Below the pieces are notes generated by a model. That model was not told the origin of the DNA. It saw only the letters and a program-made list of their open reading frames with translations, and ran no database searches. 64,000 nucleotides of DNA from Aminobacterium sp. MB27-C1 (GTDB lineage Bacteria; Synergistota; Synergistia; Synergistales; Aminobacteriaceae), in the NCBI RefSeq assembly GCF_030908405.1, contig NZ_CP133089.1:1178001-1242000 (forward strand), read 5' to 3'. This document shows positions 4,381 to 48,478 of the stretch, piece by piece; the first letter of the stretch is position 1; the number at the start of each line of letters is the position of its first letter. The position numbers were made by a program, and so were the translations under genes.

Positions 4381-5688
4381 GTGGATTATAAAATGAAAAT
4401 TTCAGGTGGAATTCCTCTTAAGGGGGAAATATCTGCACAAGGAGCCAAAAATGCTGCTTTACCTATTATGGCTGCCTCTCTCCTTCTGAAAGGAGGCACC
4501 CTTCATATTCACAAAGCACCCCGGCTACATGATGTTCTTACAATGGCCGACCTTTTGCGAAATTTAGGTGCTGAAATCCAGTATGAAAAAGATGAAATGT
4601 TTATTGCCGTTCCCGAAGATCTCTCTTGGGAAACACCTACAAATCTCGTACGCAAAATGAGAGCATCCTCTCTCGTTTTAGGGCCGCTGCTTGCTCGTTG
4701 CGGTCGTGCTGTTCTTCCCTTACCTGGAGGATGTTCCATTGGTAGTAGACCGATAGACCTTCACTTGAAGGGATTGTCCCGAATGGGGGCCTCTATTGAC
4801 TTGATTCACGGAGCTGTACACGCAACTGCCAATGGCCTGAAAGGATGCCGTATTTATCTTGATTTCCCATCTGTAGGAGCCACAGAAAATTTAATAATGG
4901 CTGCTGTTTTCGCAGAAGGAGAAACTATACTTGAAAACACAGCTCGCGAACCGGAGATTACTAATTTGGTTCAAACTTTAAAAAGGATGGGTGCCCAAAT
5001 AGAAGAGGATGGAACAGGCGTAGTTCGTATTAAGGGAGTAGATGAACTACAAAACTCTGAAACCACAGTCATTCCTGACAGGATTGAAACATGCACATAT
5101 ATTTTAGCCGGAATTATAACCGGGGGAGAAATAAAAATTAACGATATCATCCCGCAACACATAGATTCTCTCATAGCTAAATTAGAAGAGGGAGGAGCGT
5201 CTTTTACAGTAAGAGAAGACTCTGTTCTTGTGCATCCAATTGAAAGGCTTAAGGGCGTTTCATTGAAAACCATGCCATATCCTGGATTCCCTACAGACTT
5301 GCAGCCACAGATTATGGCTACACTAGCCTTAGCTGATGGAGCCAGTGTTATTCAAGAAGGAGTTTTCCAAGCTCGATTTTTACATGTTAACGAACTTAAC
5401 AGGATGGGTGCAAAAATTGAACTCCAAGGAAACACTGCTGTTGTGACTGGCGTCGATCATCTTGTTGGAGCTGATGTCAATGCCACAGATCTGCGAGCTG
5501 GTGCAGCCCTTATATTAGCAGGATTAGCAGCTCAAGACGAAACGTGTGTCTATCACATAGGTCATGTCTGGCGTGGTTACGAAGAGATGGATACAAAACT
5601 CCAGCAACTTGGTGGGCGAGTAGAAGTTATTCCAACAGAACAACTAGGGCCTAAAGTTAATGGTGCCGTTAGGAAGGAGGAGTCCTAA
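4381..5688 (+). CDS. murA: UDP-N-acetylglucosamine 1-carboxyvinyltransferase
   Basis: First committed step of peptidoglycan synthesis: enolpyruvyl transfer from PEP to UDP-GlcNAc in the cytoplasm. The 435 residues show QGAKNAALP with the substrate Lys-Asn pair, the active-site cysteine C118 in GGCSIGSRPIDLH (the fosfomycin-sensitive Cys form) and DLRAGAAL near the C-terminus. Two GTG codons are possible. The one at 4381 sits 8 bases after an AGGAG site, whereas the one at 4372 overlaps it, so 4381 was chosen. It shares UDP-GlcNAc with the upstream wec genes. Confidence 0.93.
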   Translation: MDYKMKISGGIPLKGEISAQGAKNAALPIMAASLLLKGGTLHIHKAPRLHDVLTMADLLRNLGAEIQYEKDEMFIAVPEDLSWETPTNLVRKMRASSLVLGPLLARCGRAVLPLPGGCSIGSRPIDLHLKGLSRMGASIDLIHGAVHATANGLKGCRIYLDFPSVGATENLIMAAVFAEGETILENTAREPEITNLVQTLKRMGAQIEEDGTGVVRIKGVDELQNSETTVIPDRIETCTYILAGIITGGEIKINDIIPQHIDSLIAKLEEGGASFTVREDSVLVHPIERLKGVSLKTMPYPGFPTDLQPQIMATLALADGASVIQEGVFQARFLHVNELNRMGAKIELQGNTAVVTGVDHLVGADVNATDLRAGAALILAGLAAQDETCVYHIGHVWRGYEEMDTKLQQLGGRVEVIPTEQLGPKVNGAVRKEES

Positions 5689-40494: not shown

Positions 40495-40527
40495 AAAAGA
40501 AACGATCAGGGAGGGATTAGTAGCAGA

Positions 40528-40887
40528 ATGAGCGAAAAGAATGAACTCATGAATCAGTATATGTTCGTCCTGGATGCTTTGGCCGATAAGAGAGGACTGG
40601 ATATTACATTAATGGATCTAGAGGAAAAAGCCACAATTGCTGATACGTTCATTATCGTAACAGCAAACTCTGATATTCACATGGGGACATTGCGTAATGC
40701 CGCAGAAGAAGCCCTTGATAAAAAAGGAATGTCATCAATTATAGAAGGCCGGAATAGCACTCAGTGGTGCCTTATAGATGCAGGAAACCTCGTAATACAT
40801 ATCTTCAGCCGTAAGGGACGGGAATTTTACCATTTAGAAAAGGTATGGGGAGATTGTCCTTCATATTCCTACGAATATTTGGATTAG
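40528..40887 (+). CDS. rsfS: Ribosomal silencing factor RsfS
   Basis: Binds L14 and blocks joining of the subunits under starvation. The 119 residues show the family core: ADTFIIVTANSDIHMGTLRN, GRNSTQWCLIDAGNLVIHIF, then REFYHLEKVWGDCP. ATG 40528 follows GGGAGGGATT by about 10 bases. It is the last gene of the long plus-strand half, followed by a terminator. Confidence 0.94.
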   Translation: MSEKNELMNQYMFVLDALADKRGLDITLMDLEEKATIADTFIIVTANSDIHMGTLRNAAEEALDKKGMSSIIEGRNSTQWCLIDAGNLVIHIFSRKGREFYHLEKVWGDCPSYSYEYLD

Positions 40888-40915
40888 TAAATTCTATTTA
40901 TTTTAAACCAACTAG

Positions 40916-40960
40916 AAAAGACCCAAGAGCAATATCAATATATCTTGGGTCTTTTCTTTT
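40916..40960 (+). terminator. Terminator after rsfS
   Basis: AAAAGACCCAAGA (40916-40928) pairs with TCTTGGGTCTTTT (40943-40955) over a 14-base A+T-rich loop and is followed by more T. It ends the obgE-nadD-lcp-rsfS unit. Confidence 0.85.
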
Positions 40961-41244
40961 GTTCATACAAGAATATAGGAGAATCTACGTCCTTATTAAA
41001 GAGAAGCTACGGGAGCAAAATAAGAGAGAAGTTGTTTTTACATGGTGTCATATAATGTATCTTATGTTGCGTAAAACATGAAGAATATAAGAATCTACGC
41101 CTTAACTTAGGTTTTCTCTTTTTTCTCGAATTACCTCGAATTTATTCGTAATTATGTCTCTTTTATCTTGCATTTTTTATTCTTCGGGCTAATACACAAT
41201 TTACATACACTGATACACAACACTAAGCTCGTAAATAAAGAACG
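40961..41244. other. Gene-free A+T-rich spacer between the two halves
   Basis: No gene with a ribosome site was seen here on either strand. A 78-codon frame crosses the rsfS end and its terminator, and is probably chance. The spacer holds an imperfect direct repeat (40969-40995 and 41081-41104). It separates the plus-strand block from the convergent minus-strand block. Confidence 0.6.
40969..41104 (+). repeat. Imperfect direct repeat pair in the spacer
   Basis: AAGAATATA-AGAATCTACG-CCTTA occurs at 40969-40995 and 41081-41104. The first copy has two extra G and one extra T; all other bases agree. The copies start 112 bases apart. Origin is unknown. Confidence 0.6.
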
Positions 41245-41281
41245 TAAAGCAGGATATATCTGATATATATATCCTGCTTTA
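41245..41281. terminator. Bidirectional hairpin at the end of the feo cluster
   Basis: A 15-bp stem, TAAAGCAGGATATAT (41245-41259) with its complement at 41267-41281, closes a 7-base loop. It lies 61 bases after the DUF4198 stop on the minus strand. Neither side has a long T run, so it may act through its own A-T base. Confidence 0.7.
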
Positions 41282-41295
41282 CAATATTACACACA

Positions 41296-41319
41296 ACACA
41301 TAACACATAACACATAACA
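41296..41319. repeat. Short tandem repeat, ACACATA x3
   Basis: Three perfect ACACATA units (41296-41316) and the start of a fourth lie between the hairpin and the DUF4198 stop codon. It may be slippage-prone. Confidence 0.8.
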
Positions 41320-41342
41320 TACTTTATCTTTTTACTGAAGTT

Positions 41343-42152
41343 TTATTTCATATCCCGCGCTTGAACCCAAATAATAGCATCTTGACTCAATTCTTTATCT
41401 TGATATGTAGTTTTTGGCCCAACGCCTAGCGCAGCAAATCCCCACCATCCGGAACGAGGAATCCCAAAGGTAAAGCATCCTTTTTCATCTGCTTTAATTG
41501 TCATAGTTACAAATGCATCCTGAGGAGCTTCTACATGAGCCTCTTTTGCAAATTTATTTTCATTCATAATTGGCTCATGGTTCAAATACTCTACCTCTAT
41601 CTCTGCATAAGGGACTGATTTTCCTTCACTTTTTACAATGCCTCTGAATACATTCCCAGTCCAAAGGGCATAAGGCTTATCAAGTGGAACAATTTCAGCA
41701 GGAAGACCCATTTCACTATCCCAATCAGTAGGAATACCTGCAACGTTTACTATAACTTTAGTCATTTGTTGAATATAGGCATCTTCCTGAGCCTCAAAGT
41801 ATGGTGATGGAACGAAACAAAAAACATAATCCCCCATGCCTTTTAAACGATATTTTAAATTATAAGCTTTTCCACTATTAGTAAGACTTGTCCAGATAAT
41901 AGGGTTAATCTCTTTGATAAGATCTGTTTTATTGCCTTTATGAACTACGTACAACGATTCAGGCTGCCCCATTGTCATAGTATGTCCTGCCTCAAAGGGA
42001 TGGGTGAAAACAAGCTTAAAATCTAAGTTTCCTCCCTTGTTAAGAGCACTTTCTGGCGTATATAACATCTGAAAATGGGCAGAAGCCGGAAGGGCAAAAA
42101 GACAAACCATAAGTGACGTCAACAAAACTTTTGTTGCTCTTTTCAATATCAT
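41343..42152 (-). CDS. DUF4198 exported metal-transport-type protein (NikK/CbiK-like)
   Basis: A 269-residue exported protein of the DUF4198 family, known as the extracytoplasmic component of Co/Ni transport systems. The signal peptide (about 1-25) ends in PASA, so the mature chain would start with His (HFQMLYTPE). His and Met follow at HPFEAGHTMTM, a plausible metal site. ATG 42152 follows AAGGAG; the frame is open upstream but has no site. It is 113 bases from the small exported protein and probably in the same transcript as feoB. A nickel or iron role is inferred from family and context. Confidence 0.8.
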   Translation of the reverse strand: MILKRATKVLLTSLMVCLFALPASAHFQMLYTPESALNKGGNLDFKLVFTHPFEAGHTMTMGQPESLYVVHKGNKTDLIKEINPIIWTSLTNSGKAYNLKYRLKGMGDYVFCFVPSPYFEAQEDAYIQQMTKVIVNVAGIPTDWDSEMGLPAEIVPLDKPYALWTGNVFRGIVKSEGKSVPYAEIEVEYLNHEPIMNENKFAKEAHVEAPQDAFVTMTIKADEKGCFTFGIPRSGWWGFAALGVGPKTTYQDKELSQDAIIWVQARDMK

Positions 42153-42265
42153 TCCATTCCTCTCCTTACTATTTATTGCTCGCCCTCCTCCCACGAAACG
42201 AGGAAATCCTCATTCTGCAGGTTGGAAGTTTCGATATTGTAATTGTAGTATTTTTGTTACTCTCG

Positions 42266-42589
42266 TTACTCTTTAATGTCTTCACCTTTTATTTCTACAA
42301 CATGACCAGGACCTGCATTAAAGATAACAATAAATGGGACCTCTGGTTTTTCAAAAGTAAACTCGCTGAGTTCATCCATTTTTCCTTCAACGAGAACTTT
42401 ATCATTGGTATCCTTCACAGCCATTTCGACCCCAGATGCAGATGATCCGTCAGAAAAACCACCTTCACATGTAATAGTTCCATCTCCATTGAGGTAACAA
42501 TAACATAGAGGGGTATGTGCAAAGGCTACTGATCCGAGAACAAAAACACTTACTGCTAAAAGCACGCCTAATACTAATTTCCGTTTCAT
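42266..42589 (-). CDS. Small exported Cys/His protein (NikL-like)
   Basis: A 107-residue protein with a signal peptide ending VAFA, so the mature chain should begin HTPLCYCY. Three cysteines (CYCY and ITCEGG) and the N-terminal His look suited to metal binding; the rest (about 45-107) has a beta-sandwich pattern. From memory it resembles the small NikL-type component of nickel transporters, but no search was run. Its ATG overlaps the feoB stop (ATGA), so it is translated with FeoB. No transmembrane helix other than the signal is seen. Confidence 0.75.
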   Translation of the reverse strand: MKRKLVLGVLLAVSVFVLGSVAFAHTPLCYCYLNGDGTITCEGGFSDGSSASGVEMAVKDTNDKVLVEGKMDELSEFTFEKPEVPFIVIFNAGPGHVVEIKGEDIKE

Positions 42590-45108
42590 AGGTTGGCCAC
42601 CTCCTTTCCTTTTAAAGTTTTTTCGTCTATATCTGTCTCAACGACAGATCCTTTTACTTTGCCCAACAAAAATGCAGTAACTAATGCAATTGCATAAAAG
42701 ACAAACATCCCTTGTGTTCCAGACAACCCAAGCCAGGTTCCACCGCTATAAACTAAAGTCGCTAATGTCATTCCAAGAAGGATAGGATATCCTAAGGCTA
42801 TAAATGCCCATTTCCAGCCTCCAGCTTCTATCTTAACCATAATTAATGTTGCAATGCACGGAGGATACATGGCCATAAAAATCATTAAAGCTAGGGCGTG
42901 AAGGGGGGTAAATCCCTTTTCCTGTTCTTTCATACGCTGCGCGAGAGTCTGTCCATCTTCTTTCTGTTGGTAGAGAACACCTAACGTTGCCACACTACTC
43001 TCTTTCGCCGCCAACGAACTTAAAAGAGCTACATTAACTTTCCAGTTAAATCCTGCAAATCGAGTTACAGGTTCTAAAAACTTTCCGGCCATACCAAGGA
43101 AACTTCCATGTAATGTCTCGTCACGCAAATCCATAAGCAACAATGCTCTCTCTCGCTTCATAACCTTAAAAGCTTTGTTTAAGGCTCTGCCATCTTTACC
43201 TTTTGCATTGAGTAAGGGATAAACATCACTGTACCGTTCTGCAAATCGCTGTTCAAATTTTTCTCTTCTCTCGTCAGAAGCCTTAAAGAGAGCTCGTTTT
43301 TGATTTTTGTAACGTTCCTCAATAACAAGATAACGAGTTATATCTTTATCTCTCTTAAATTGAGAAGCAAAAGGAGTATTTTGGATTTTACTTGTAAAAA
43401 CATTTTTTATCTGTTCTGCTCTTTTCTGGTAAGTGTTTATTCGTTCTTCACCAACAGAGGGATAATTTGTAAGGAAAAAAACAGCAACAGCAACAATCAT
43501 GATAATCGTGAGAACCTTCCTTACAAAAAGCCACGTTCTTTCTATAGAACGCATAAGAACACCGCGGATAGTCGGAATATGATATGGGGGCATCTCCAGA
43601 ACGAAGGGAGAACTTGGTCTATTCTTTAAAAGCGTCAATGTCAATATTTTGGCAACGGAAAGAGCCAATATAATTGTTATTGTCGAGATAAAAAACATTG
43701 CTAACGCTTTTTCTTTAGCAAAATAGATGCTAATCAGAAGCGTATATAAAGGAACTTTAGCTAAACAATTCATCAGAGGAACAATAAGGATTGTGGCTAA
43801 ACGAGCCTTTTCATCGGCAATAACACGTGTTGCCATTACTCCAGGAACAGCACAGCCTCCAACAAATACTCCCCCCAAGATAAGAGGTAACGTAGACTGC
43901 CCATGCAATCCAAAACGTCTGAAAAGCTTATCGAGAATAAAGGCCATTCTCGGCATATATCCTACGTCTTCAAGAATCGCTATCAATGCGAAAAGAATTA
44001 AAAATATAGGAATATAAATGAGCACAGAATTAATACTTGTGATGACATTCAACACAAGAGATCTAATTAATGGCTCCCTTAAGAATGTTCCTATGGGAAG
44101 AAACTTTTCTATAGCATTACGGAATCCTTCCAACAAGGGCACCATATAGTTAGTCAATTCATACCCTCCAACAATGGAGAGCTCGTATAGAAGATAAATA
44201 ATGCCAGCCAAAATAAGAGGCCCCCAAATTCGGCTGCAAACCAATCTGTCAATACGATCAGTTAACGTTACAGAAACTTCTTTTGTTTTTACAACACATC
44301 GCTTCTCTATTTTTTGAGCAGCAAGATGGCGTCTGAATGCAATAAATCCTCGAGGTGTGTCATCATATTTCCTCTCAAACTCAGAGCAAATTTTGCTAAC
44401 ATAATTTCTTACATCTTCTGGATTTTTAAAGTTGCTTGAAACTAACTTTTGCGCTACTTCATCTTCCTCAAATAGCTTTATTGACAACCATCGAAGAGGG
44501 ACCTTACTCTCTTCAATTTGTGATTGCAGTAATTTCGCAGACAAATCAGTAATATATGATTCCAAGTCTCCATAATCCACAATATGTAAATGTTCATGAT
44601 CCAAATTTGAATCAAAAGCTTTAATAACGCCATCTTTTAGTTCATTTTTTCCCCGCCCCTTACTACCTACTGTTGTAATAACTGGAAGATGCAAGGTTTT
44701 TGAAAGGGCGTCAGCATCAACTTTGAGTCCTCTTTTTTCAGCGACATCCACCATGTTAAGAGCAATTAAAAGAGGGGCCCCCAGTTCCAACAATTGAAAA
44801 GTAAGGTAAAGATGCCGTTTTAAATTTGAAGCATCCATAACATTTACGACTAAAGACGGTGACTGATCAATTATAAAATCTCTCGTTATACGCTCTTCTT
44901 CAGAATATGAAGAGAGGCTATAAGTACCGGGCAAGTCTGTAAGTGAAATCTTTTTCTCTTGCCATGAAAATGCTCCCGTTTTTATAGATACAGTTGCACC
45001 TGGGTAATTAGCAACAAACTGCCTTCCACCTGTAAGCATGTTAAAAATTGTTGATTTTCCACTATTCGGCTGGCCTGCTAAAGCAACATGCATCTTTTCA
45101 TGACCCAT
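42586..45108 (-). CDS. feoB: FeoB-type ferrous iron (metal) transporter with an internal insertion
   Basis: G-protein-coupled membrane transporter of 840 residues. The GTPase part has GQPNSGKST, NYPGATV, LTDLPGTYSL, NMVDV. The two gating motifs are variant: GGCAVPGVMATR and PLMNCLAKVPLY, where the common forms are GxGCNVPA and SCGARLP. About 117 charged, helical residues are inserted between LTNYP and SFLGMAGKF, making it 80-150 residues longer than usual. It overlaps feoA by one base and the small exported gene by 4. Iron is likely, but the motif changes and NikK/NikL-like neighbours leave other metals open. Confidence 0.9.
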   Translation of the reverse strand: MGHEKMHVALAGQPNSGKSTIFNMLTGGRQFVANYPGATVSIKTGAFSWQEKKISLTDLPGTYSLSSYSEEERITRDFIIDQSPSLVVNVMDASNLKRHLYLTFQLLELGAPLLIALNMVDVAEKRGLKVDADALSKTLHLPVITTVGSKGRGKNELKDGVIKAFDSNLDHEHLHIVDYGDLESYITDLSAKLLQSQIEESKVPLRWLSIKLFEEDEVAQKLVSSNFKNPEDVRNYVSKICSEFERKYDDTPRGFIAFRRHLAAQKIEKRCVVKTKEVSVTLTDRIDRLVCSRIWGPLILAGIIYLLYELSIVGGYELTNYMVPLLEGFRNAIEKFLPIGTFLREPLIRSLVLNVITSINSVLIYIPIFLILFALIAILEDVGYMPRMAFILDKLFRRFGLHGQSTLPLILGGVFVGGCAVPGVMATRVIADEKARLATILIVPLMNCLAKVPLYTLLISIYFAKEKALAMFFISTITIILALSVAKILTLTLLKNRPSSPFVLEMPPYHIPTIRGVLMRSIERTWLFVRKVLTIIMIVAVAVFFLTNYPSVGEERINTYQKRAEQIKNVFTSKIQNTPFASQFKRDKDITRYLVIEERYKNQKRALFKASDERREKFEQRFAERYSDVYPLLNAKGKDGRALNKAFKVMKRERALLLMDLRDETLHGSFLGMAGKFLEPVTRFAGFNWKVNVALLSSLAAKESSVATLGVLYQQKEDGQTLAQRMKEQEKGFTPLHALALMIFMAMYPPCIATLIMVKIEAGGWKWAFIALGYPILLGMTLATLVYSGGTWLGLSGTQGMFVFYAIALVTAFLLGKVKGSVVETDIDEKTLKGKEVANL

Positions 45109-45332
45109 TATTTCTCTACCTCCACAAACCTTGCCTCATCATGCCGAATAGTTACGTGATGTCCATCTACTTTTATCTCCACAGGATCAACAAGAGGAGC
45201 ATTACGGATAACAAAAACTTCAACACCAGGAAAAAAGCCAAGATCCATTAATCGCTGTCCTATTACACCACGAGCTCTGTTTTTATGAATTACTCCATGC
45301 TCGCCAGGCTTCATCTCATCCAATGTAATCAT
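45108..45332 (-). CDS. feoA: FeoA SH3-like protein
   Basis: A 74-residue SH3-like cytoplasmic partner of FeoB. The start MITLDEMKPGEHG and segments QRLMDLGFFPGVEVFVI and IRHDEARFVEVEK match FeoA. The frame runs further upstream, but the ATG at 45332 overlaps the flavodoxin stop (ATGA) and gives the family N-terminus. The stop overlaps feoB by one base. Confidence 0.92.
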   Translation of the reverse strand: MITLDEMKPGEHGVIHKNRARGVIGQRLMDLGFFPGVEVFVIRNAPLVDPVEIKVDGHHVTIRHDEARFVEVEK

Positions 45333-45841
45333 GCCACCAAGACCTGATACAAATGCTCTACCCACTCTTGAATTCTCTTTTCTGTAAGATCGGGTTGATT
45401 ATCTTCATCTATTGCCAAGCCTACAAATTCACCTTGTATAGCAGCCTTAGAAACATTAAAGCCATAACTCTCAACAGAACATCCAGAAGAAAGAATAGCT
45501 ACCCCTTTCTTAGAAAGTCTTTCGTATATTGTTCCCATACCATCAACAAAAGTATCAGAAAAGCCACACTGATCACCAAGTCCGAATAGAGCCACTGGGG
45601 TATTTTTAAAATCAAAAGTATCTATTTCATCAATAAAACTAAGCCAATCATCTTGAAGGTCTCCATATCCCCATGTAGGAGTGCCTAAAATAAGAAAATC
45701 GTATTCTTCCATATCTTCCTTTCTGGCTTCAGCCACATTTTTCAAGACGACATCATCTTTTCTCTTAAGCAAAGAAGCTATCTGTTCCGCCACTTCTTCT
45801 GTATGCCCAGTGGAAGTTCCATAAAAAATGCCTATTTGCAT
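45329..45841 (-). CDS. Flavodoxin (long-chain)
   Basis: FMN electron carrier that replaces ferredoxin under low iron. The 170 residues show the phosphate loop GTSTGHTEEVA, the flavin-side TPTWGYGDLQ and the long-chain loop FGLGDQCGFSDTF. It overlaps feoA by 4 bases and follows the DUF2023 gene after 12 bases. A flavodoxin in a Feo operon agrees with iron limitation as the signal; it could also reduce Fe(III) for FeoB. Confidence 0.92.
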   Translation of the reverse strand: MQIGIFYGTSTGHTEEVAEQIASLLKRKDDVVLKNVAEARKEDMEEYDFLILGTPTWGYGDLQDDWLSFIDEIDTFDFKNTPVALFGLGDQCGFSDTFVDGMGTIYERLSKKGVAILSSGCSVESYGFNVSKAAIQGEFVGLAIDEDNQPDLTEKRIQEWVEHLYQVLVA

Positions 45842-45853
45842 AACCTACTCCTC

Positions 45854-46234
45854 CTAACCTATAAGCTCGTCTCGATCTTCTTTTAACTGTAAATACCTTT
45901 TACATTGAAGAACTCTATCGTATCCAAGCATCGTTCCTAAAATAAAATCCTCTTCGTCTGTGTAATCACGCAACGAAACTTTATTGATCTTACACACGAC
46001 ATCGATACATACTTGGTGACCAAAAAACACATTAATTTTATGGTCATTTACGGGGTATATAACGTATGGGATATTCTGATTCTGAAGACGGCGCACTATC
46101 TCTTGTTCATACCCTCTTGACGTTGTATGAAGAATAAGAGCCCGCAAGCCTTTTACATATTCATAGAGATGATGAGCAAAAATTTCATCTACCTGATAAC
46201 ACTGTGGCAAACATGTAATGTTTGGAAGAGGCAA
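45854..46234 (-). CDS. DUF2023 family protein
   Basis: A 126-residue protein that fits DUF2023, a family commonly found next to flavodoxin and Feo genes. It is cytoplasmic, with no signal or helix, mostly alpha/beta; Cys residues occur at C-L-P-Q-C, VCIDVVCK and QCKRYL. The start is TTG 46234, 9 bases after AAGGAG; no ATG lies nearby. It is the first gene of the cluster, 35 bases from the expected transcript start. Function is unknown. Confidence 0.75.
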   Translation of the reverse strand: MPLPNITCLPQCYQVDEIFAHHLYEYVKGLRALILHTTSRGYEQEIVRRLQNQNIPYVIYPVNDHKINVFFGHQVCIDVVCKINKVSLRDYTDEEDFILGTMLGYDRVLQCKRYLQLKEDRDELIG

Positions 46235-46250
46235 CTAAAACATCTCCTTA

Positions 46251-46305
46251 ATGTTTTATATATCAAACAATGGGGATTATACTTTAATATGTTTTATATG
46301 TCAAA
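46251..46305 (-). repeat. Pair of 17-bp direct repeats flanking the feo promoter
   Basis: TTTGACATATAAAACAT (46289-46305) and TTTGATATATAAAACAT (46251-46267) differ at one base. The starts are 38 bases apart. The first covers the -35, the second lies just after the transcript start, which is where a repressor operator would be expected. Confidence 0.75.
46276..46304 (-). promoter_or_regulatory. Consensus promoter of the feo cluster
   Basis: TTGACA (46299-46304) and TATAAT (46276-46281) are both perfect and 17 bases apart on the minus strand. The predicted start is near 46269, leaving a 35-base leader to the DUF2023 TTG codon. The flanking direct repeats suggest repression of an otherwise strong promoter. 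Confidence 0.85.
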
Positions 46306-46330
46306 CTTATAAAGGGGATGGGGATAATAA

Positions 46331-46364
46331 AAGAAGCTCGGGGTTTCCCCTGAGCTTCTTCCCT
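46331..46364 (-). terminator. Terminator after tpiA
   Basis: AAGAAGCTC-GGGG pairs with CCCC-TGAGCTTCTT over a 3-base loop with one bulge. Read on the minus strand it is followed by TTTTATTAT. It closes the gapA-pgk-tpiA unit just ahead of the feo promoter. Confidence 0.85.
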
Positions 46365-46394
46365 GATTGCTGATCTTATTTTATGAGCTTTATT

Positions 46395-47207
46395 TTAACC
46401 TCTATGAAGGGATTGATGAATAATATCTAGCATTGATGAAGCAGAAAGAGATGCTCCACCAATAAGGGCTCCATCAATATCTGGCTGATCTAAAAGATTA
46501 GCCACATTTGCTGCTTTGACACTCCCACCATAAAGAATATGAATATCCCTATGGCATTCCATTTCATCGTCAATTCCACTTATTTCTGCAAGTAACTCTC
46601 TTGCAAAAAGACAAGCTTCTTCAGCATTTTCCGGACTTGCCGTTCTTCCTGTTCCAATAGCCCAAACAGGTTCATAGGCCCAAATTGTTTTTTTAATTTC
46701 TTCGGGAGATAGACCTTCGGCTGCACTCTGAATCTGTCGTCTGAATACATCAAAAGTCATATCTTTTTCTCTCTCTTTAAGGGTTTCCCCGAAACAAAGC
46801 ACAGGACATAGATTATGACCAAGAGCTGCTTTTAATTTTTTATGAACAATCTCATCTGTTTCTCCCATGATGTGTCGCCGTTCACTATGACCAATAATGA
46901 CATGGCTGCACCCTACTTCCTTAAGCATGGGGAAAGAAATCTCACCAGTAAAGGCACCCTTTTCTTCATAGAAGGCATTTTGTCCGCCTAAGCATATCCC
47001 ATCGTTCTCTCCTTGTGTAAGAACACTTGCACCTGTTTGCAACAAGGTGAATGGAGGGAAAATACAAATCTCAAGAAAATTTCTATGTATTTGATCACAA
47101 ATAACAGCATCCTCACAAATTTTCTCAGAGAGTTCCGTAAAAAACTTTTTCGTTTCTATGATCGTATTATTCATTTTCCAGTTGCCATAAAGATATATTT
47201 TCTTCAC
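46395..47207 (-). CDS. tpiA: Triosephosphate isomerase
   Basis: Interconverts DHAP and glyceraldehyde-3-P. The 270 residues start with YGNWKMNNT and hold the catalytic His in IGHSERR, the catalytic Glu in YEPVWAIGTGRTAS and the phosphate loop LYGGSVKAAN. It is somewhat longer than the usual 250 residues. It is the last of the glycolytic trio, and a hairpin at 47234 separates it from pgk, so its level may differ. Confidence 0.95.
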   Translation of the reverse strand: MKKIYLYGNWKMNNTIIETKKFFTELSEKICEDAVICDQIHRNFLEICIFPPFTLLQTGASVLTQGENDGICLGGQNAFYEEKGAFTGEISFPMLKEVGCSHVIIGHSERRHIMGETDEIVHKKLKAALGHNLCPVLCFGETLKEREKDMTFDVFRRQIQSAAEGLSPEEIKKTIWAYEPVWAIGTGRTASPENAEEACLFARELLAEISGIDDEMECHRDIHILYGGSVKAANVANLLDQPDIDGALIGGASLSASSMLDIIHQSLHRG

Positions 47208-47226
47208 AGAAAAATGTTCCTCCTTT

Positions 47227-47258
47227 CAAAAAAAGACGGGAGCTTACGCATCCCGTCT
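47227..47258 (-). terminator. Hairpin between pgk and tpiA
   Basis: AGACGGGA (47251-47258, minus) pairs with TCCCGTCT (47234-47241) over a 9-base loop and is followed by seven T on the minus strand. It looks like a partial terminator inside the glycolytic unit. Confidence 0.8.
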
Positions 47259-47287
47259 CTATAAAACTATAGTGTCACAACTTTTCT

Positions 47288-48478
47288 CTATTTTATTAAA
47301 AGTAGCTCAATGCCTGGTAATACTTTTCCTTCACAAAACTCTAAGCTAGCTCCACCGCCAGTAGATACATGCGTAACCTTCTCTGCAAAACCTAATTTTT
47401 TAACGGCAGACGCCGTATCTCCTCCACCTACTACGGTAATTCCGCCATTTTCTGTACACTTTTCAACCGCTTTTGCCACAAGGCGGGTCCCCTCTGCCAA
47501 AGTCGGATTTTCAAAAACACCCATAGGACCATTCCAAAGAACAGTTTTGGCTTTTTCAATATAGCTAGCAAAAAGAGCAGCTGTTTTTGTTCCTATATCT
47601 AACCCCATATCTGCAAAAGAAATATCGTCTACCGAAACTTCTTTTCGCGGAAGTTCACTCTCTAAAGACTCCGCCACCGCTGTGTCAACTGGCAAAACGA
47701 TGTCGACTCCCATCTCTTTTGCTTTTGTGAGCATTTGCTGTGCAAAATCAGCCTTATCTTCTTCGTATAAGGATTTACCAATCCCCTTGCCTTGAACAGC
47801 CAAGAAAGTATATGCCATTCCTCCACCAATAAGAATTGCGGAAGCTTTTTCAAGAAGATGGTCGATAACTCCTATTTTGTCAGAAACTTTTGCTCCTCCC
47901 AAAATGAGGACAAAAGGTTTTTCAGGAGTTTCGCTCACTGTACTGAGCATCTCTATTTCACGAGTTATCAAATTGCCCGCAAATGAAGGAAGATACTCCA
48001 TTACCCCTCTTGTTGAAGCATGTGCTCTATGCGATGCGCTAAAAGCATCCATAACAAAGACATCAAAGGGGGCAGCAAGCTCTTTTGCAAAATCGAGATT
48101 GTTCTTTTCCTCTTCTGGATAAAATCTAATATTTTCCAAAAGTACGACACTGCCTTTAGGAGCAGAATCAATAGCTTTCTGCACATTTTCTCCGATGGAA
48201 TCATTAACGAAGATAACGGGACAATTCAATATCTCTTTTACATTCTTTACTATATGCATAAGAGACAGGCTTTCAACTTTTTTGCCTTTAGGACGTCCTA
48301 AATGAGAGACAAGCGTTACTTTTGCTCCCCACTCAAAAAGCTGTCGAATTGTGTTCACGTGTGCCCTGATTCGTGTTGTGTCAGAAACTACTCCCTCTTT
48401 TAAGGGAACATTGAAGTCAACACGAAGAAGAACATTTTTCCCCTCAACATCCTGACGAGAAAATTCTCGCAACTTCAT
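47288..48478 (-). CDS. pgk: Phosphoglycerate kinase
   Basis: Makes ATP from 1,3-bisphosphoglycerate. The 396 residues include the substrate motif LLRVDFNVPL, SHLGRPKG, HRAHAST, LGGAKVSDKIGV and the nucleotide-binding WNGPMGVFE with VGGGDTASAV near the end. It lies 3 bases after gapA. Confidence 0.96.
   Translation of the reverse strand: MKLREFSRQDVEGKNVLLRVDFNVPLKEGVVSDTTRIRAHVNTIRQLFEWGAKVTLVSHLGRPKGKKVESLSLMHIVKNVKEILNCPVIFVNDSIGENVQKAIDSAPKGSVVLLENIRFYPEEEKNNLDFAKELAAPFDVFVMDAFSASHRAHASTRGVMEYLPSFAGNLITREIEMLSTVSETPEKPFVLILGGAKVSDKIGVIDHLLEKASAILIGGGMAYTFLAVQGKGIGKSLYEEDKADFAQQMLTKAKEMGVDIVLPVDTAVAESLESELPRKEVSVDDISFADMGLDIGTKTAALFASYIEKAKTVLWNGPMGVFENPTLAEGTRLVAKAVEKCTENGGITVVGGGDTASAVKKLGFAEKVTHVSTGGGASLEFCEGKVLPGIELLLIK

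Follow-up and report, generated by a model that had tools for sequence, protein, structure and literature searches.

Does the Feo system of Aminobacterium sp. MB27-C1 work with metal-capturing partners outside the membrane? Bacteria import ferrous iron mainly through Feo; in this genome the Feo genes feoA and feoB are followed by two genes for exported proteins that are homologous to NikL and NikK of an ECF-type Ni/Co importer. The initial annotation of this DNA proposed that the two proteins may capture metal outside and hand it to FeoB. We analysed the locus within a stretch of 64,000 nucleotides, hereafter the window, and compared it with loci of other genomes. In the following, L denotes the NikL-like exported protein, K the DUF4198/NikK-like exported protein, and Feo-KL the proposed Feo variant.

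Organisation and transcription signals of the cluster

The cluster occupies positions 41343-46234 on the minus strand of the window, with its genes in the order DUF2023, flavodoxin, feoA, feoB, L and K. Its features are as follows:

46251..46305, minus strand: promoter and repeat pair, with TTGACA at 46304-46299 and TATAAT at 46281-46276 (12/12 sigma-70-type match)
46289-46305 and 46251-46267, minus strand: two copies of TTTGAYATATAAAACAT, a candidate operator; no further exact match in the 2.43-Mb genome
45854..46234, minus strand: DUF2023 gene, the first of the operon, TTG start (PF09633, 1e-39)
45329..45841, minus strand: flavodoxin FldA (TIGR01752, 1.5e-58, above cut-off; Flavodoxin_1, 1.4e-27)
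45108..45332, minus strand: feoA, likely start ATG 45332 (PF04023, 1.2e-18)
42586..45108, minus strand: feoB, 840 aa (FeoB_N, 8.9e-61, and two Gate domains; TIGR00437, 487.9 bits)
43114..43479, minus strand: FeoB aa 544-665, containing the clade-specific basic insertion (insertion HMM and alignment; pI 9.9)
42266..42589, minus strand: L, 107 aa (NF058648, 1.8e-13, 50.8 bits)
41343..42152, minus strand: K, 269 aa (PF10670, 2e-55)
41243..41283, minus strand: Rho-independent terminator at the operon end (17-bp stem; fold z -5.3)

All six genes that the initial annotation had described as linked on one strand were recovered, and the start-stop overlaps that it had reported at flavodoxin/feoA, feoA/feoB and feoB/L were confirmed. 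The DUF2023 and flavodoxin genes are separated by a 12-nt gap; the flavodoxin stop and the feoA start at ATG 45332 form an ATGA overlap, the GTG 45365 of the listed ORF lying further upstream; base 45108 is common to feoA and feoB; and feoB and L overlap by 4 nt (42586-42589). The likely start of K is ATG 42152, not GTG 42194, which leaves a gap of 113 nt between L and K, in which we looked for a terminator or a promoter-like site and found none. Since a 12-of-12 TTGACA-17-TATAAT promoter (46304-46276) lies 5' of DUF2023, the sole strong terminator lies 3' of K and the L-K gap is bare, the genes from DUF2023 to K are likely one transcription unit. Separate transcription of the DUF4198 gene, which would have spoken against the proposal, thus left no sign in the sequence.

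A wider regulon of TTTGAYATATAAAACAT was not seen in the 2.43-Mb genome, where matches with two mismatches were near the control level, and an Rfam search of positions 40500-47500 detected no RNA element. Classical Fur boxes (p<0.05) were found upstream in just 8 of 65 loci, a weak signal without clear enrichment, and were therefore left out as evidence. In another genome of the same genus (G030), the promoter region and feoAB-L-K are kept, the flavodoxin gene is lost and DUF2023 is degraded; neither of these two genes is thus essential to the module. Ahead of feoA in that genome (locus L036, about 4400-4720), traces of DUF2023 and of the beginning of the flavodoxin gene are left.

The exported proteins K and L and the nickel operon of the same genome

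The initial annotation had predicted that the mature forms of both exported proteins begin with His. The predicted mature N-terminus is His25 in L (nt 42517-42515) and His26 in K (nt 42077-42075), so that the mature N-termini would be HTP and HFQ, after an A-x-A type site. The boundary Ala and the His are invariant in the alignments of K and L relatives, in line with this prediction, and no other cleavage site is indicated there. Each protein carries a second conserved His, namely His96 in the GPGH motif of L (nt 42304-42302) and His51 in the FTHP motif of K (nt 42002-42000), and K and L of the Nik type from the same phylum have equivalent His pairs. Judged from alignment, mature K and L would have the conserved N-terminal His of histidine-brace type metalloproteins. 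For DUF4198, published work supports an exported metal-binding fold with an N-terminal His: IsDUF4198 (9GCB) binds Ni through its N-terminal His and His18 with a Kd of 18 nM (PMC12537917). By analogy, a small metal site would be expected to form from the N-terminal His and the second His in each of L and K.

Structure prediction and homology search, which had been recommended as a check, identified K as a DUF4198 fold and L as a NikL homologue with an Ig-like model. K belongs to DUF4198 (PF10670), scoring 188.6 bits against a gathering threshold of 34. L scored 50.8 bits with the NikL model NF058648, under the curated cut-off of 100, and is thus a NikL homologue but not an equivalog; moreover, it is without a C-terminal TM. 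The model of L (pLDDT 91.9) is a generic Ig-like beta sandwich, and its fold search returned generic Ig-like domains and nothing at E <= 0.001. CopC ranked sixth in this search and was non-significant. The model of K (pLDDT 79.8 overall, about 60 in the N-terminal part) matched the Zcp metal complexes at E 3.5e-12 and the DUF4198 Ni protein 9gcb at E 1.6e-4. Sequence searches of the PDB with K and L singly gave no match, and a search with the K alignment profile gave just Zcp entries plus chance hits. A second DUF4198 protein is encoded after K in several operons (locus L034, 11738-12562; genomes G021, G022, G024, G038, G044 and G114-G118), and that of locus L083 has a predicted mature N-terminal His (GHSLFIQ).

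The absence of NikMNQO noted by the initial annotation holds for the cluster but not for the genome. Neither NikM, NikQ nor NikO is encoded in the feo cluster, which is hence not a NikKMLQO system, and a partnership of K and L with NikMQO within the cluster was rejected for the same reason. A complete nikK-M-L-Q-O operon is present at 2.190 Mb, about 1 Mb from the feo cluster. In the tree, the Feo-type K and the Nik-type K are split by a branch with 100/99 support.

Linkage of K and L to one FeoB clade

The genomic survey of FeoB-NikL-DUF4198 linkage that had been suggested was carried out at two levels. Among 188 Synergistota genomes, the short-type L adjoins feoB and K in nearly every carrier. 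A scan based on the L sequence only, with one genome per species, yielded 298 relatives, and the best 80 loci were examined: FeoB lay within 4 kb in 73 of these 80, K within 1 kb in 69, and both in 65. The linked L loci span Synergistota, Desulfobacterota, Alpha- and Gammaproteobacteria, Nitrospirota and Omnitrophota, so that the absence of linkage elsewhere, which would have counted against the proposal, is contradicted in several phyla. The 73 FeoB-linked loci fall into three arrangements: 52 are co-directional with FeoB upstream (feoAB-L-K), 16 are divergent, and 5 read L-K-feoAB. Retention of the pairing through three arrangements points to function and not to mere shared ancestry.

Other genes were observed around these loci. 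Near K, about 12-15 loci have a conserved block that encodes an ABC ATPase, a DUF4857 protein and a membrane protein of about 226 aa matching no Pfam family; the block is downstream of K in L057, L063, L068, L069, L078, L088, L114 and others. In about 9 loci (L042, L045, L051, L066, L099 and others) the gene after K encodes a porin-like outer-membrane protein (weak Porin_O_P match), and in several proteobacterial loci (L089, L094, L100, L115 and others) a FeoB-associated Cys-rich membrane protein (PF12669, just under cut-off) follows feoB. In two Geobacter MAGs (L062 and L086) feoB and L are separated by a gene that resembles a TonB-dependent receptor, as judged by eye in L062, which hints at a step at the outer membrane. 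A Halodesulfovibrio genome harbours a second insertion-type FeoB with a diverged L beside it.

The window FeoB is a complete member of its family, containing the FeoB_N GTPase, FeoB_Cyto, two Gate domains and FeoB_C, and scoring 487.9 with TIGR00437 against a cut-off of 315.65. All sampled FeoBs linked to K/L, that of the window included, have in common a homologous insertion of 116-130 residues before Gate 2; in the window FeoB a hydrophobic helix (about aa 524-554) precedes the insertion. It matches no Pfam family and is absent from the other FeoBs of the same genomes. An HMM of the insertion scored at least 45 bits in 93 FeoBs, and 0 bits in 34 of the other 35 FeoB ORFs, the remaining one reaching 15.1; because the HMM was built from the linked FeoBs, only the absence of the insertion elsewhere is an independent result. 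The linked FeoB of genome G114 has an internal stop, and its insertion was scored only in a read-through search. With the insertion columns masked, a tree placed 36 linked FeoBs on one side and 29 unlinked FeoBs on the other side of a branch with an SH-aLRT of 100; many of the unlinked FeoBs came from the linked FeoBs' own genomes, and the tree came from a fast search in which two rows were very long. The clade also has its own motifs, with VGGCAVPG at Gate 1 instead of GFGCxVP and GQPNxGKST in the G1 loop instead of GNPNSGKTT; after the PCxAT of Gate 2 it has mostly Gln for Glu, and the window FeoB keeps Glu.

The insertion is basic, with a median pI of 9.9 (charge +10.5), and L (pI 4.4, -9) and K (pI 5.4, -7) are acidic, which suggests that the insertion docks K and L electrostatically. 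It holds no conserved His or Cys and is therefore unlikely to be a metal relay itself. Such docking would place the insertion outside. By the positive-inside rule basic segments favour the cytoplasmic side, so that charge alone points to the cytoplasm, against an outward placement. The hydropathy of the window FeoB shows three TM-like stretches after the insertion, and an outside location fits if a 48-residue hydrophobic stretch forms two TMs; the weakly hydrophobic Gate helices make this TM count uncertain. A published model has both FeoB termini in the cytoplasm. Judged from this predicted topology, the insertion may face outward, which is the weakest step of the docking proposal.

The insertion and L also occur together at the level of whole genomes. 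In Synergistota, 22 genomes have both the insertion and a short L, 1 has the insertion only, none has L only and 165 have neither; in a second phylum, that of delta-proteobacterium NaphS2, the corresponding numbers among 247 genomes are 18, 2, 1 and 226, some of the genomes counted having also given rows to the insertion profile. Thus 22/23 and 18/20 of the insertion-bearing genomes, respectively, have L (Fisher p 9e-28 and 4e-24, with genome relatedness ignored). The L of genome G014 is diverged (E 4e-11) and was counted because it adjoins FeoB and K. The exceptions are mostly explained: K and L are gone from G023, whose insertion-type FeoB has lost the greater part of its GTPase domain; in G205 and G360 the contig breaks off within FeoB; and G204 has K and a FeoB of the K/L-linked clade but no L. 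A DtxR-type regulator follows directly after the GTPase-poor FeoB of G023 (L193/L224, C8 about 535 kb).

Chance adjacency of K/L and FeoB was ruled out by the linkage and co-occurrence counts. Some L/K pairs do occur without FeoB (L084 and L102), and a second L copy without FeoB adjoins a DUF4857/ABC-type ORF in G035 (C5; locus L035, 10053-10394). K and L might be co-regulated with Feo yet work on their own as metal buffers of the periplasm, or with other partners; orphan NikK/NikL with no assigned function were already noted by Zhang et al. in 2009 (PMC2667541), and the ABC transporter with a DUF4857 protein is often found downstream. An independent buffer would not be expected to occur almost one-to-one with a single FeoB clade and the insertion peculiar to it, and we hold this explanation to be very improbable. 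Taken together, the linkage, the single FeoB clade, its private insertion and the co-occurrence strongly support a functional pairing of FeoB with K and L, as far as genome comparison can tell.

Proposed function and comparison with known systems

Which metal would K and L handle? The operon contains feoAB and the DUF2023-fldA pair, which is induced by iron starvation about 160-fold in Prevotella intermedia and 326- to 598-fold in Bacteroides thetaiotaomicron (PMC10434189), and the genome has a separate nikKMLQO for nickel; for these reasons iron is favoured, and Fe(II) is most likely the metal captured by K and L. The homology of K does not by itself indicate iron, since IsDUF4198 was solved with Ni. 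It might be argued that the clade now transports Ni, Co, Mn or Zn instead of iron, with K and L retained from a nickel system, given their homology to NikK/NikL, the Ni bound by a DUF4198 protein, the altered Gate 1 motif and mostly Gln after Gate 2 in the clade, and the assignment of some FeoBs to manganese (FeoB1 of P. gingivalis). Against such a shift stand the genome's own nikKMLQO, the iron-starvation gene pair within the operon and the Glu retained at the Gate 2 position of the window FeoB, and we regard it as quite unlikely.

We consider it fairly probable that Feo-KL is a Feo variant whose K and L capture metal on the outer side, most likely Fe(II), and hand it over to FeoB at the insertion. 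FeoA and FeoB would constitute the inner-membrane importer. L and K would be exported, and signal cleavage would expose an N-terminal His on each, which together with the second conserved His may form a metal site like that solved in the DUF4198 protein. Outside the inner membrane, K and L would then pick up a divalent metal, which is most likely Fe(II), and pass it on to FeoB by docking on the clade-specific basic insertion of about 110 residues. DUF2023 and the flavodoxin would be the iron-sparing arm of the same iron-starvation operon. The chances are slightly in favour of a wider reading, in which a widespread FeoB subfamily has gained an outward docking domain and a two-protein capture module related to the ECF nickel importer, whose extracytoplasmic N-terminal-His carriers deliver Fe(II) to FeoB; this would be a so far undescribed periplasmic branch of Feo.

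The linkage and co-occurrence data would also fit if K and L worked with this FeoB clade without delivering metal, by gating or stabilising FeoB or by releasing iron from a complex or holding it. FeoABI shows that a FeoB partner can alter the substrate range (PMC9047314), and DUF4198 genes also lie beside flavinylated or PepSY redox proteins tied to iron reduction. The paired metal-site His, kept as in NikK/NikL, favours a metal-binding role, and we judge a role without delivery to be unlikely.

The pairing had been thought undescribed, and we found no description of it in the open-access literature covered by the search. In that literature DUF4198 and FeoB appeared together only in one Caulobacter study, which draws no connection between them, and a 2022 study of how Feo evolved refers to neither DUF4198 nor any periplasmic component. 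According to a paper of 2025, Feo differs from other Fe(II) systems in having no periplasmic protein (PMC11920956). Our results suggest that some Feo systems own a dedicated metal-capture module outside the membrane. If this is true, the view that Feo works without partners in the periplasm (PMC11920956) would need revision, as a large subfamily of FeoB would have exported partners that look obligate, the orphan NikK/NikL would gain a function, and one metal-capture module would be common to two unrelated transporters. As the module is also present in genera such as Photobacterium and Pseudovibrio, the Feo-KL model is directly testable.

Compared with known systems, the window system is like canonical FeoABC in FeoA, the FeoB GTPase, the helical domain, the two Gate domains and the FeoB_C core, but differs in its distinct FeoB clade, altered Gate 1, insertion and two exported partners. 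With NikKMLQO it shares homologous K and L, both exported, with a predicted mature N-terminal His and the same second His; unlike that importer, it has no M, Q or O, its L is about 107 aa without a C-terminal TM, and its K is separate in the tree. The predicted fold of K matches both IsDUF4198 (9GCB), solved with Ni at an N-terminal His site, and Zcp (9MHI-9MHO), solved as Zn/Cu/Co complexes, with identities of 14-19%; no report of either protein in a Feo operon was found in the literature examined. The DUF4198-DUF2271/PepSY clusters of Caulobacter and Alteromonas are iron-responsive like the window cluster (PMC11870441, PMC8238504), but redox partners take the place of FeoB and L. FeoABI of Stenotrophomonas maltophilia, compared here by description, likewise has an extra membrane-side FeoB partner that alters substrate use, FeoI being proposed to extend FeoB to ferric citrate (PMC9047314); FeoI is a single-TM inner-membrane protein, unlike the exported K and L.
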